NCBI GenBank assembly: GCA_015488535.1
Contig: WFNP01000030.1
Location: 1-64,000 of the forward strand
Direction: 5' to 3'
Origin: Nitratifractor sp.
GTDB taxonomy: Bacteria > Campylobacterota > Campylobacteria > Campylobacterales > Sulfurovaceae
DNA: 64,000 bases
The translations under genes and the position numbers were made by a program. This document shows, piece by piece, positions 35,107 to 40,646 of the stretch. A model generated the notes under the pieces. That model had not been told where the DNA came from. It made no database searches and saw nothing but the letters and a program-made list of their open reading frames with translations. The stretch's first letter is position 1; each line of letters opens with the position of its first letter.

Positions 35107-35595
35107 ATGCTAAATGAAAGAGATGTTATCAAATTATATGTGGCGACATTTAACAGGGCTCCAGATACTCCGGGTTTATGGTATTGGGTTTATGATTCTG
35201 GTCTTACTCTTGATGGAGTAGCAGAGAGTTTTTTTGATCAGCCTGAAACTCAAGCTCTATATCCACCAAATACATCTACAGATAATTTTATAAAAGCAGT
35301 ATATAGAAACCTTTTTAACAGAGAGCCTGATGATGCAGGATTGGTTTATTGGAGACATGAATTAGATAGTCACAGGATACCAAGAAGCAGATTTATATTG
35401 GCGGTAATGAATGGTGCAAGGGGTGATGATGCTGATATTCTCGAAAACAAGACAGAGGTAGGTCAATATTTTGCACTGAAAAATATTACTGATATCAATT
35501 TGGCAAAAAGGGTAATGGATAATATTGACAGAACAAGAGATTCTGTATTGAATGCTGAGAGAATGATAGACTCTTACATTCTCTCTCACCCTTAA
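35107..35595 (+). CDS. Free-standing DUF4214-domain protein without signal peptide
   Basis: LYVATFNRAPDTPGLWYWVYDSG and VYRNLFNREPDDAGLVYWRHELDSH. Confidence 0.8.
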   Translation: MLNERDVIKLYVATFNRAPDTPGLWYWVYDSGLTLDGVAESFFDQPETQALYPPNTSTDNFIKAVYRNLFNREPDDAGLVYWRHELDSHRIPRSRFILAVMNGARGDDADILENKTEVGQYFALKNITDINLAKRVMDNIDRTRDSVLNAERMIDSYILSHP

Positions 35596-35620
35596 ACAGG
35601 AGTTGTTTTATCTCCTGTTT
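35594..35620. terminator. Convergent terminator hairpin AAACAGGAG-N9-CTCCTGTTT
   Basis: 9-bp stem followed by T on +; lies across the ends of the two convergent ORFs. Confidence 0.6.
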
Positions 35621-36792
35621 TCAGCCTCTTTTACTGCTCTGTCGAGGTTGATTTTACCATAACCATAGTAGTCATTTCTACCATCTATATATGGCTTGTC
35701 TCCAATTTTGTCTGCTGTATTTTTGAGTATATCTTCTATCTCTTTTCTACTCAAATCCGGGTTGGCTTCCATCATCAAAGCTACGGCACCTCCTACTATG
35801 GCAGCTGCCGGAGATGTCCCGGCAAAACCGTAATAATCATTATAGAGTATATAATCCGGATTAAGTGTTGCTGTACCTCTTTCACCTGAATCATCCAGTG
35901 CTGTAATTGCTGTATCATAATCTCCTCCTGGTGCAAGGATATCAAGATGTTTACCGTAATTGCTATACCAAGCTCTATCATTATGTATATTACTTGCACC
36001 TACTGATATGACTTCATCTATTGCTGATTCATCATTTCCCATATCTATATTTTCGTTTCCTACAGCAAAAACTATAGGAATACCCAATCCGTTTCTGCCA
36101 TTTTTTGCGAGTGATATTATTTTGTCTTTTACCGATTTTGATACATTATATGTCCCCCAACTGCATATTATGATATCTGCACCTAGCTCTTGGGCTTTGT
36201 TAAACAGTGTTATAGTTTCACTGTCACTCATATTTTCTTTGTATCTCAGAAAAATAAGCTGTGCATTGTGGGCAACTCCATCTATACCTATATTATTGTG
36301 CCTGGCTACAGCTATACTGGATACAGCAGTTCCGTGAAATCCGAAAAAATCTCTGTGTGATACATCTGAAGTATTACTCTCTATATCGTATGATGATATA
36401 AGTGCATCTGTAAGATCCTCATGATACATATCCAATCCGTCATCTATGACAGCTATCTTTATACCCTGACCGCTATATTTGCTTCTGCTGTATGATGAGT
36501 GTATATTGGCATCTTTGTCTATGCCGACTTCATTATAAAAAGTATCGTTTCTATCCAGATACCATTGTTGATAGTAATATTTGTCGTATGGATTGAAAGT
36601 ATCTTCGACAGCCATAGGATTACTTATTGTGTCATCCAAAACTGTTCTATTACTTTCATTATCGTTATGATTCTCTTTTATGACACGATTATCATTATCC
36701 TTAGTTTGGGTATTGTTACTTGATGAATCAATATCTACACACCCTGAAATACTCAGCAGTATAGCTATTGATATTAAAATTTGCTTTTTCAT
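35608..36792 (-). CDS. Subtilisin-like (S8) serine protease, lipoprotein, kexin-like N-terminal region
   Basis: Lipobox LLSISGC; catalytic Asp VIDDGLDMYHEDL, His GFHGTAVSSIA, Ser GFAGTSPAAAIVGGAVALMMEANP; YYYQQWYLDRN. Confidence 0.92.
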   Translation of the reverse strand: MKKQILISIAILLSISGCVDIDSSSNNTQTKDNDNRVIKENHNDNESNRTVLDDTISNPMAVEDTFNPYDKYYYQQWYLDRNDTFYNEVGIDKDANIHSSYSRSKYSGQGIKIAVIDDGLDMYHEDLTDALISSYDIESNTSDVSHRDFFGFHGTAVSSIAVARHNNIGIDGVAHNAQLIFLRYKENMSDSETITLFNKAQELGADIIICSWGTYNVSKSVKDKIISLAKNGRNGLGIPIVFAVGNENIDMGNDESAIDEVISVGASNIHNDRAWYSNYGKHLDILAPGGDYDTAITALDDSGERGTATLNPDYILYNDYYGFAGTSPAAAIVGGAVALMMEANPDLSRKEIEDILKNTADKIGDKPYIDGRNDYYGYGKINLDRAVKEAENRR

Positions 36793-37073
36793 TATCTTTT
36801 CCGTATTGTTTTTATTCTGTCAGGATGAGCATACTCTACCATAGGATAAGAGACAAGTTTTTTACATATTTTGGATATATCTTTATCTTCCGAAAACTTT
36901 AGAAGATATATATTATTACCCATATCTCTTACTTCTGTTGCATCTGAGAGTTGGGTAATTTCTGATATTTTATCAGCCTCAGTCAATTTTATTAATATAT
37001 TTTTGGCACTTAATCCCTGAATTGTCAGCATTGACAATAATATTAAAGTTGCCGGTTTTTTTAACAGTCTCAT
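36792..37073 (-). CDS. Secreted 93-aa protein resembling an S8 protease propeptide (inhibitor I9-like)
   Basis: Signal peptide; NILIKLTE...NIYLLKFSEDKDISKICKKLVSYPMVEYAHPDRIKTIRKR; stop overlaps protease start (TAATG). Confidence 0.6.
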   Translation of the reverse strand: MRLLKKPATLILLSMLTIQGLSAKNILIKLTEADKISEITQLSDATEVRDMGNNIYLLKFSEDKDISKICKKLVSYPMVEYAHPDRIKTIRKR

Positions 37074-37083
37074 ATTTTCCTCC

Positions 37084-38283
37084 TTATGATTGGTTTGAGA
37101 TAGTCAATCTGTATGTACTTTTTGCTATTTGCAACTCTTCATCTGTTTTTATACGAATTAGAGATATTTTACTGCTTTTAGAGTGTATAAACCTGTTGTT
37201 TTTATCATCACAGAGGTTTAGTGTATCATCTATCGTTACTCCTAGAGGTTTAAGCCTGTCTGATACAGCTTTTCTGACAGATATAGAGTTTTCTCCGATA
37301 CCACCGCTGAATACTATGGCATCGACTCTACTCATACTTACTGCGTATGCACCGATATATTTCACTATTCTATCTACAAATATATCAAAGGCAAGTTTTG
37401 CATCTTTGTCTCCACTTGATATCAACTCCTCTATTTCTCTCATATCATTGTGACTACACAGACCTTTGAGCCCACTTTTTTTGTTTAACATACTCTCTAT
37501 ATCTTCGGCACTGTATCCCTCTCTCATCAGATAGAAAATAATAGCAGGGTCTATATCTCCGCTTCTGCTTCCCATAACCAATCCTTCCAATGGAGTCATC
37601 CCCATAGAGGTATCGTAACTTTTACCGTTTTTTACAGCACATATACTAGCACCATTACCCAAATGTAGAGTAATGACATTGAATTTATCTATCTCAATTT
37701 TGCACATTTTGGCTGCTGTTTTAGATAGATAATCATGTGATGTGCCGTGAAATCCATAACGCCTCACCCTTTTTTGGGTATATAAATCTTTTGGTAAGGC
37801 ATATATATATCTTAGAGGCTCTATCGTTTGATGAAAGGCTGTATCAAATACTGCAACCTGAGGTATGTTTTTTATAAGATTTTCCATTACCTTTATACCT
37901 TTTAAGTTTGCCGGATTGTGAAGAGGAGCCAATGCAATATTCTCCTCTATCTTTGATTTTACCTCTTCATCTATGACTACAGCATCTCTGAAATGCTCTC
38001 CACCGTGTACTACTCTGTGACCGACTGCTGATATTTCATCTATATTTTTAATGATATCTTTTGTTATTAGAGCAGTAGTTATAGCCTTTAGTGCTTTTTG
38101 GTGGTCAGATTTGCCCAACTCTTCGTTGATACTCTCATTTTCCAAATTGATATGAAGCAGTGCATTATCTTCACCAATCTTTTCTACTTCACCTGATACA
38201 ATTACGCTCTCTTGTGGAAAGCGATACAGTTTAAATTTTATTGATGAGCTTCCACTGTTTAAAACCAAAATTTTCATCTGCAC
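37084..38283 (-). CDS. ackA: Acetate kinase
   Basis: KILVLNSGSSSIKFKLY; GHRVVHGGEHF; AVFDTAFHQTI; RRYGFHGTSHDYL; MGMTPLEGLVMGSRSGDIDPA. Confidence 0.98.
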   Translation of the reverse strand: MQMKILVLNSGSSSIKFKLYRFPQESVIVSGEVEKIGEDNALLHINLENESINEELGKSDHQKALKAITTALITKDIIKNIDEISAVGHRVVHGGEHFRDAVVIDEEVKSKIEENIALAPLHNPANLKGIKVMENLIKNIPQVAVFDTAFHQTIEPLRYIYALPKDLYTQKRVRRYGFHGTSHDYLSKTAAKMCKIEIDKFNVITLHLGNGASICAVKNGKSYDTSMGMTPLEGLVMGSRSGDIDPAIIFYLMREGYSAEDIESMLNKKSGLKGLCSHNDMREIEELISSGDKDAKLAFDIFVDRIVKYIGAYAVSMSRVDAIVFSGGIGENSISVRKAVSDRLKPLGVTIDDTLNLCDDKNNRFIHSKSSKISLIRIKTDEELQIAKSTYRLTISNQS

Positions 38284-38513: not shown

Positions 38514-40646
38514 ATGCTAAAAAGAGTATTGGTATTGGCTGTATTTATATTTGATATAGCCTATGCACAGGTAGCTGACAGCACAAATGTAAGCAAACTA
38601 TATATTGCTACATTTAACAGAGCTCCAGATAGTGCGGGATTGGATTACTGGGTTAATAGTGGTTTGAGTCTTGAAGAGATAGCACAGAGTTTTTTTGACC
38701 AAAAAGAGACTCAGCAAAAATATCCCAAATCACAAAATATAGATGAGTTTATCAATACTGTATATTCCAATGTTTTGGGTAGGACTCCTGATAGTGCAGG
38801 ATTGAAATATTGGGCAGATGAATTAAACAGTAACCATATTTCACGCTCTTCATTTATTTTGGCAATTACAAATGGTGCTATCGGAAAAGATGCCATGTTG
38901 CTCAACAATAAAACAGAAGTCGCTCTGGCATTTGCAAAATCAGGTAGTAATGATATAGAAAAAGCCAAAGAGATACTCAAAGATGTAACTGCAGATATAA
39001 GCAGTGTTACAGATGTATTGCAAAAAGAGAATCTTACTCAATATGCTGACTCAGATTCTATGGTGGCACTGCCTGATAAGCTGTTTGTAAAAGGGTGGAA
39101 GAGTTATCTCTCTATGGGAACAGTTACAGATGATGCTCCTTCTCAGATAGATTTGATAGCAAACAGTGGCATAGATGCCATATTTAAATATGTAGGCAAC
39201 GGTATGGGAGAGAGAGGCGATGTCATAGAGCCGGAATTTGTTATGAAAACGATAGTGTTGGCAAGGGAGGCTCAAAAACATACAGGCAAAAATGTAATGC
39301 CTGTAATGGTGGTATATACAGCCAATGCCAGTGGTGGCGGTCTGGGTGAAGATGATATACTAAATTATGATAATTTGGTAAAACACTTCAGAAGTCTGAT
39401 TCGTATATCATCTACAATGCAGTTGCAAAAAGATAGTGAACACAGTTATCCGGCTTCTGTGATACTCAATCCGGATTTGATGGGCAGTTGGGAAATATCT
39501 ACTCTGTATGGAGGCTTTTATGATGTATATTGTGGGGACACAGATGATACAAGTTGCAACAATCCAAAGCATATAGATATTAAAAAAGCTCTGAATGAGG
39601 CTATAGATTTGGAAAAGGATTATAAATACGGTTTTAATGATGGAGATTTAAAATCAGTATATGATTTGGATAGTCTCAAATCAGAAATTGCAGACAATAT
39701 CAGTGATGATATATTTGGCTGGGTAGATGCCCAAAACTTCATCATCAAAAAATTTGCACCGGATGTCTCTTTTGGCTGGGTATTTAATCTTTGGAGTTCA
39801 GGCACCTCATTATGGGTGCATGATGAATATCCCTCAGGAGATGAACCGGCTCAAAATGTCGTTGAATTTATTAACAATATAGGACTTTATAATGGTAATT
39901 ACAGACCGGATTTTATAGTATTTGATAAATATGAAAGAGATGGATTCTCACCGGCAGGTAGAGGATATTATGCCTTTGGCTCAAAAGAGTGGAAAAATTA
40001 TCTATATTATGTCAAATCTATTACAGATACTATAGATACTCCGGCAATGCTTTGGCAAATACCAGGTGGGCATATGCCGACAAAAAATGAAGATGTATCG
40101 TTTGATTATATAAATCACTCAGCAAGTGGTGGGGATTTTTTCATGGGTGATGAAAATATCGGCACCAATATAGATAATATCAGAGATGATATTCTCAATA
40201 TTGCCCTAAATCCCGATGTATATAACGGTGCTTCAAATGTGAAAGAGCTTTTAGAGCAGGATAGTGATTATGACTGGAGTAAATCACAGATACAAAGAGC
40301 AGTAAACTCCAATGTATTTGCTATCCTTTGGGGTGGAGGAGAGACTACAGGTGTAATACCTATATCTACCTGTATGAATGGTGGATATGAATGGTTGGCA
40401 CAAAAAGTGGCAAAATATGAAAATTCTTCTACATCAAAAAGTATAAATACCCGCTCATTGGAGTTGGATAGAAGCAATTTGTCTGACAATAAAACTTATA
40501 CAGCAGGTAAAAGTGTAGTAGTAGGCTTGGACAACAGGATATACAAATGTAAACCATTCCCTAAAGGACAATGGTGTAAAATCCCAGCTTATGCTCCGGG
40601 TGGAAAGAGTGGTATATGGAAAGATGCCTGGGATGTAGTGAAGTAG
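38514..40646 (+). CDS. Secreted DUF4214 protein with large glycoside-hydrolase-like region and C-terminal carbohydrate-binding-like module
   Basis: Signal peptide; LYIATFNRAPDSAGLDYW and VYSNVLGRTPDSAGLKYW; C-terminal KTYTAGKSVVVGLDNRIYKCKPFPKGQWCKIPAYAPGGKSGIWKDAWDVV resembles CBM5/12-type modules. Confidence 0.65.
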   Translation: MLKRVLVLAVFIFDIAYAQVADSTNVSKLYIATFNRAPDSAGLDYWVNSGLSLEEIAQSFFDQKETQQKYPKSQNIDEFINTVYSNVLGRTPDSAGLKYWADELNSNHISRSSFILAITNGAIGKDAMLLNNKTEVALAFAKSGSNDIEKAKEILKDVTADISSVTDVLQKENLTQYADSDSMVALPDKLFVKGWKSYLSMGTVTDDAPSQIDLIANSGIDAIFKYVGNGMGERGDVIEPEFVMKTIVLAREAQKHTGKNVMPVMVVYTANASGGGLGEDDILNYDNLVKHFRSLIRISSTMQLQKDSEHSYPASVILNPDLMGSWEISTLYGGFYDVYCGDTDDTSCNNPKHIDIKKALNEAIDLEKDYKYGFNDGDLKSVYDLDSLKSEIADNISDDIFGWVDAQNFIIKKFAPDVSFGWVFNLWSSGTSLWVHDEYPSGDEPAQNVVEFINNIGLYNGNYRPDFIVFDKYERDGFSPAGRGYYAFGSKEWKNYLYYVKSITDTIDTPAMLWQIPGGHMPTKNEDVSFDYINHSASGGDFFMGDENIGTNIDNIRDDILNIALNPDVYNGASNVKELLEQDSDYDWSKSQIQRAVNSNVFAILWGGGETTGVIPISTCMNGGYEWLAQKVAKYENSSTSKSINTRSLELDRSNLSDNKTYTAGKSVVVGLDNRIYKCKPFPKGQWCKIPAYAPGGKSGIWKDAWDVVK

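Follow-up and report, generated by a model that had tools for sequence, protein, structure and literature searches.

The overlapping genes for a small secreted protein and a lipoprotein protease in Nitratifractor sp. very probably encode one subtilase in two pieces, the smaller being a displaced propeptide that acts in trans to fold the protease and to inhibit it as a product does; we put the probability of this reading at about 0.85. The pair lies in the window (the whole 64,000-nucleotide stretch analysed, from contig WFNP01000030.1; Table 1), and its coordinates, strand and TAATG overlap, first described in a reading of the letters alone (hereafter the sequence-only reading), were confirmed: the last A of the small-ORF stop codon TAA (36794-36792) is the first base of the protease ATG at 36792. 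The two-gene trans-propeptide system inferred in that reading is supported in its homology, anatomy and conservation, and fused relatives, a conserved C-terminal Arg, the link between lipidation and split and a close precedent in Aeromonas now add to it. Our case is built on five computed properties, namely the homology of the small protein to cis propeptides, its fold topology, the conservation of the pair, an Arg boundary and the association between a lipobox and the split. Subtilase propeptides fold and inhibit their own enzyme, and propeptides acting in trans mostly come from laboratory constructs, with few other examples such as the Aeromonas sobria serine protease (ASP) and its external chaperone ORF2.

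Table 1. Positions of the gene pair, its domains and motifs, and the adjoining gene in the window
Feature	Position	Strand	Basis or comment
S8 subtilase, 394 aa, predicted lipoprotein	35608..36792	-	PF00082, E 1.7e-45; sole S8 gene found in genome
Lipoprotein signal peptide and lipobox LSISGC (Cys18)	36739..36792	-	Sequence pattern; Cys invariant in protease alignment
Polar linker, aa 19-70, no propeptide domain	36583..36738	-	No significant Pfam match
Catalytic domain, aa 108-379 (Asp117, His153, Ser327, oxyanion Asn246)	35656..36471	-	Peptidase_S8 (PF00082) match
NDES motif, aa 253-256, after oxyanion Asn	36025..36036	-	Candidate acidic wall of S1 pocket, role inferred
TAATG stop/start overlap	36790..36794	-	Sequence; translational coupling (predicted)
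Small gene (93 aa) for a secreted, separately encoded subtilase propeptide (predicted trans-acting)	36792..37073	-	PF22148, cis-propeptide HMM, conserved beside S8 genes
Predicted Sec signal peptide, aa 1-23 (...GLSA/KN)	37005..37073	-	Sequence; AF2 core begins at residue 24
Mature propeptide domain, aa 24-93, beta-alpha-beta-beta-alpha-beta	36795..37004	-	AF2 core pLDDT about 90
C-terminal Arg93 codon, proposed P1-like residue for protease S1 pocket	36795..36797	-	Arg in 27/29 pairs, 11/12 fused
Acetate kinase gene	37084-38283	-	Ends 10 bp upstream of small gene, same strand

The larger gene encodes, as had been claimed, an S8 protease with Asp/His/Ser motifs and its own lipobox; no other S8 gene was found in the 1.87-Mb genome, and its catalytic residues and oxyanion Asn are invariant among protease relatives. 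The absence of a cis propeptide, also claimed at the outset, was borne out: the polar linker of some 50 residues that leads from Cys18 to the enzyme, which begins near residue 70, contains no significant Pfam domain. Nor did the window protease match the P-domain (PF01483, P_proprotein). Shortly downstream of the oxyanion Asn, a [N/D]DES motif is near-invariant across the proteases (Asp254-Glu255-Ser256 is invariant in 13 aligned proteases and mostly retained in others), and this motif is a candidate for the acidic wall of the S1 pocket. An AlphaFold2 (AF2) model of the protease, built with one relative, reached a mean pLDDT of 40, so that neither disorder in the linker nor the S1 pocket can be read from it. 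An Arg-[Ser/Thr/Ala]-Val motif occurs in the linker of the window protease (SNRTVLD, aa 47-53) and of three relatives (L005, L007, L012). A scan of viral contigs with the protease returned remote S8 proteins only, which were left out of the comparisons.

The small ORF begins with a predicted cleavable Sec-type signal peptide, MRLLKKPATLILLSMLTIQGLSA/KN, and ends in SYPMVEYAHPDRIKTIRKR. Its score against PF22148, the fervidolysin prodomain family of subtilase propeptides, was 21.9 bits at a curated gathering cut-off of 21; because this is marginal, further homology tests were run. An HMM built from 12 cis propeptides of fused relatives found a single match among the 377 ORFs of the window, the 93-aa ORF (E 3.5e-11), with an alignment that extends to its last residue, and an HMM built from 14 other split small proteins matched it at E 5.1e-12. 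PF22148 itself matched at E<=1 the small proteins of 8 of 16 relatives, and searches with it and PF18492 alone overlook most relatives in the phylum. The sequence-only reading had likened the small protein to I9-type propeptides: homology to a subtilase propeptide stood, but the family is PF22148 and not PF05922 (Inhibitor_I9), which gave no match to the small protein at E up to 10 and none to its relatives. The structure check proposed at that stage agreed with the homology, AF2 predicting from a two-row alignment the beta-alpha-beta-beta-alpha-beta topology of I9-type subtilase propeptides with a core pLDDT near 90. Foldseek searches with this model returned mostly generic ferredoxin-like folds, with the PC1/3 prodomain at rank 11 (E 0.03) and a Csp pseudoprotease complex at rank 21; since the topology is a common superfold, such a fold match is weak by itself. 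A search of PDB sequences with the small-protein profile gave no meaningful match. The homology of the small protein to subtilase propeptides is supported by the sequence comparisons, which settle the matter where fold alone does not. Most relatives, as well as the fused forms, have an N-terminal extension of about 35 residues (YY..GKKV..G), which is missing from the window small protein (P0001) and from that of a member of the same genus (L003).

To judge how widely the arrangement is conserved, protease relatives were gathered from 149 genomes and small-protein relatives from 397 genomes of the phylum Campylobacterota. The overlapping pair recurs in many genomes, in a layout that brings the end of the small secreted ORF up to the start of the lipoprotein protease or to within a few bases of it, and this recurrence, together with a PF22148 score above the gathering cut-off, makes the pair more than a chance overlap. 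Co-occurrence of the two genes in relatives, suggested earlier as a check, was indeed found: among the 29 distinct Campylobacterota pairs compared, the stop-start spacing is -4 in 17, +2 in five, -1 in two, and +1, +5, +7, -10 and +93 in one each, so that the genes overlap in 20 pairs and overlap or stand no more than 7 nt apart in 28. These junctions also bear on whether an ordinary fused subtilase has only been made to look split, by an error of sequencing or assembly or by breakage of its gene. Fused relatives do exist, but 28/29 distinct pairs, drawn from many genomes, have two complete ORFs with their own export signals, and the junction spacings are of several kinds; we regard an artefact or broken gene as next to inconceivable.

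Conservation stops at the pair. In a comparison of 10 larger neighbourhoods the protease alone was shared, its upstream partner having been found separately in each pair, and none of the other window genes tested recurred in them. By direct tblastn the fast-evolving small protein was found, in those 10 neighbourhoods, only in the same-genus relative, where it is 26% identical to that of the window as against 60-66% for the protease. Such rapid divergence might suggest an unrelated secreted protein that merely adjoins the protease gene; the profile homology to cis propeptides contradicts this, and the pair is conserved while the surrounding genes are not, which leaves chance adjacency very improbable. 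The acetate kinase gene may be cotranscribed with the small gene in this window. Its adjacency to the pair is absent in the 10 relatives compared, and no conserved neighbourhood beyond the pair, acetate kinase included, was found. DUF4214 (PF13946) proteins at 35107-35595 (+) and 38514-40646 (+) flank the stretch with acetate kinase and protease, four DUF4214 stretches occur at the C-terminus of one fused relative (L018) and another (L024) is similar in appearance; DUF4214 may possibly be connected with these proteases. A split pair with a protease 51% identical to that of the window is carried by a contig filed as Candidatus Gracilibacteria (L032). In the tree this protease groups with Campylobacterota sequences; the contig probably reflects binning contamination of a metagenome-assembled genome from Campylobacterota and was left out of the host range for that reason.

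A single S8 subfamily contains both split pairs and fused relatives. In the fused proteins the propeptide domain follows an ordinary signal peptide as the N-terminal part of the protease and leads without a break into the enzyme (...HPDFIKVRKKR-SLDPLF...). The two layouts share a boundary: the last residue of the small protein is Arg in 27 of the 29 distinct pairs (Lys and Gln in one each), and the same column, just ahead of the protease domain, is Arg in 11/12 fused relatives. We considered whether the ATGA overlap or a Shine-Dalgarno sequence might have produced the terminal Arg, and rejected this. Arg is encoded by both AGA and CGA at different junction types, it is kept at 11 of the 12 junctions other than the 4-base ATGA overlap, and CGA serves as the Arg codon nine times, which excludes both the overlap and a ribosome-binding site as its cause; the fused proteins, which have Arg where there is no start codon, also rule this out. 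Were the small protein a displaced propeptide that acts like a product, it ought to stop exactly at the expected P1 position, and it does. One fused relative (L010 and L225) is located on a 24-kb plasmid (Nitratiruptor sp. YY09-18, NZ_AP023066.1) beside glycosyltransferase genes.

The closest known system is that of ASP and ORF2. ASP does not mature without ORF2, the product of a separate gene, whose C-terminal Lys is positioned at the catalytic Ser of ASP and which inhibits the protease with an IC50 of 84 nM (PMC5638518); for CspB, folding is restored when the prodomain is supplied in trans by co-expression (PMC3567191). As in ASP/ORF2, two genes in the window encode a protease that lacks a cis propeptide and a small exported partner whose last residue is basic. 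The window pair would by this analogy function as a protease and its trans propeptide, Arg93 playing the part that the C-terminal Lys plays in ORF2. We infer the binding, the need for a chaperone, the inhibition, the Arg specificity and the rationale for the anchor, and propose the following sequence of events: (i), the small protein would be exported by Sec as a soluble domain of about 70 residues; (ii), the protease would be exported on its own and acquire a lipid at Cys18, its probable location being the outer membrane; (iii), in the envelope, the propeptide would bind the catalytic domain and aid its folding and, (iv), Arg93 would then occupy the S1 pocket as a product-like inhibitor until the propeptide is degraded. 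Translational coupling of the two genes would ensure that synthesis is balanced and local.

Part of this scheme could also be met by a small protein that is not a folding chaperone but only a dedicated inhibitor, protecting the envelope from a protease that needs no help to fold. The target of a stand-alone propeptide-like inhibitor of this kind has its own cis propeptide, so that the separate protein acts as an inhibitor only, unlike the arrangement in the window. Stand-alone propeptide-like subtilase inhibitors exist, for example that of malaria SUB1, a separate propeptide-like protein that, as proposed for the small protein here, acts on a subtilase (PMC6993865), and a C-terminal Arg suits product-like inhibition. 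However, the window protease lacks a cis propeptide, its fused relatives carry the same domain in the usual zymogen position, and the corresponding role in ASP/ORF2 and CspB includes folding. A purely inhibitory role is thus improbable, and a propeptide that both folds and inhibits the protease is preferred.

Despite these similarities, the pair is not classed as a member of the ASP/ORF2 system because the gene order differs and neither a P-domain nor ORF_2_N (PF18492) was matched, the latter in the window small protein. PF18492 gave weak matches to the small proteins of 4 of 16 relatives (best E 4.7e-4) and exceeded its cut-off in no genome of the phylum searched. What appears to be new relative to ASP/ORF2 is the position of the partner gene (upstream here, downstream of ASP), a predicted lipoprotein lacking a P-domain match instead of an extracellular kexin-like protease, and the existence of fused relatives, which show that the partner derives from a propeptide. 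The window pair shares the prodomain family (PF22148 / I9) and the S8 catalytic family with fervidolysin and other cis-prodomain subtilases, but its prodomain is on a separate chain and its protease is predicted to be lipidated. We thus describe a family of propeptide-subtilase pairs that are split in nature and have fused relatives; an earlier description of the Campylobacterota pairs was not found in the open-access literature, a search that, with subscription papers mostly outside its scope, is weak evidence of novelty. Because one protease subfamily contains both fused and split versions, divided sharply at a conserved Arg, the propeptide origin of external chaperones and the reason for splitting a zymogen can be tested directly. 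The system also offers a natural pair for studying folding chaperones and protein inhibitors.

Why the propeptide was displaced may be related to the lipid anchor. Where the partner gene lies upstream, the pattern finds a lipobox in 31 of 32 proteases, and inspection by eye finds one in the remaining protease (L009, LLLSC). Where it lies downstream, all 9 proteases whose N-terminus is intact have a lipobox, and none of the 14 fused proteases has one; these counts are approximate since a few loci are duplicated or typed by position only. No cis propeptide was seen in about 50 lipoprotein subtilases examined, and where a PF05922 or PF22148 domain is recognisable in cis (L122, L055), the protein is not a lipoprotein. 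In the subfamily tree the split proteins fall into two well-supported clades with the fused ones between them, giving two changes of split state, and a single split clade is not rejected (p-AU 0.22). The association between lipobox and split is complete in the counts but rests on few independent evolutionary events, and with only two changes and a single split unrejected it is not statistically independent evidence.

A single chain can hardly combine an N-terminal lipid with an N-terminal propeptide that is cleaved off: cleavage of a cis propeptide would lose the anchor, whereas the split would keep the mature enzyme anchored, which is the likely reason for the separation and suggests how an N-terminally lipid-anchored subtilase could mature without anchor loss. 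A related example is the dentilisin system of Treponema denticola (PrcB-PrcA-PrtP), in which a surface lipoprotein subtilase also depends on a small operon partner, PrcB; unlike the small protein here, PrcB is a lipoprotein, and it has no reported relatives outside oral treponemes. On activation, the acylated N-terminal piece of PrtP is cut off, so that the mature protease loses its lipid and the activated complex is held by other lipoproteins, with anchoring through PrcB/PrcA1 (PMC8167434). The window protease might likewise be anchored only temporarily and free itself at an Arg of the linker (e.g. NR/TVLDD), in which case anchoring would not be the reason for the split. The linker motif described above fits such a release, but it is missing from many split relatives; we consider self-release rather unlikely, and it would overturn only the rationale, the split itself standing. 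More generally, it is tempting to speculate that lipid-anchored subtilases cannot keep a cleavable N-terminal propeptide, that lipidation drove the propeptide gene upstream (once or twice) in one subfamily and downstream in another, and that ORF2-type external chaperones are displaced propeptides of such origin, a tentative generalisation to which we give somewhat less than even odds.

The split arrangement is repeated across Campylobacterota in subtilases with a lipobox-predicted anchor. Lipoprotein subtilases of a P-domain type (L029, L030, L105, L109 and others) likewise have a trans propeptide-like partner, but they differ from the window pair in that the partner is downstream, a P-domain is present (confirmed in L030) and the branch is distant. 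Nine lipoprotein subtilases, most with a P-domain (L107, L112, L116, L117, L119, L123, L124, L028, L120), showed neither a cis propeptide nor a recognised neighbouring propeptide gene; they belong to this more distant P-domain-type branch and count against our reading. Four further lipoproteins, typed as partnerless, have a small secreted ORF directly downstream. The layout in which a lipoprotein subtilase is followed by a small secreted propeptide-like ORF (L029, L030, L031, L103, L105, L106, L109, L110, L114, L115, L130, L131), often with an ATGA or TAATG overlap, is common in Campylobacterota. One partner of this type matched ORF_2_N at E 0.02, and the downstream-partner type looks closer to the ASP/ORF2 layout than the window pair does.
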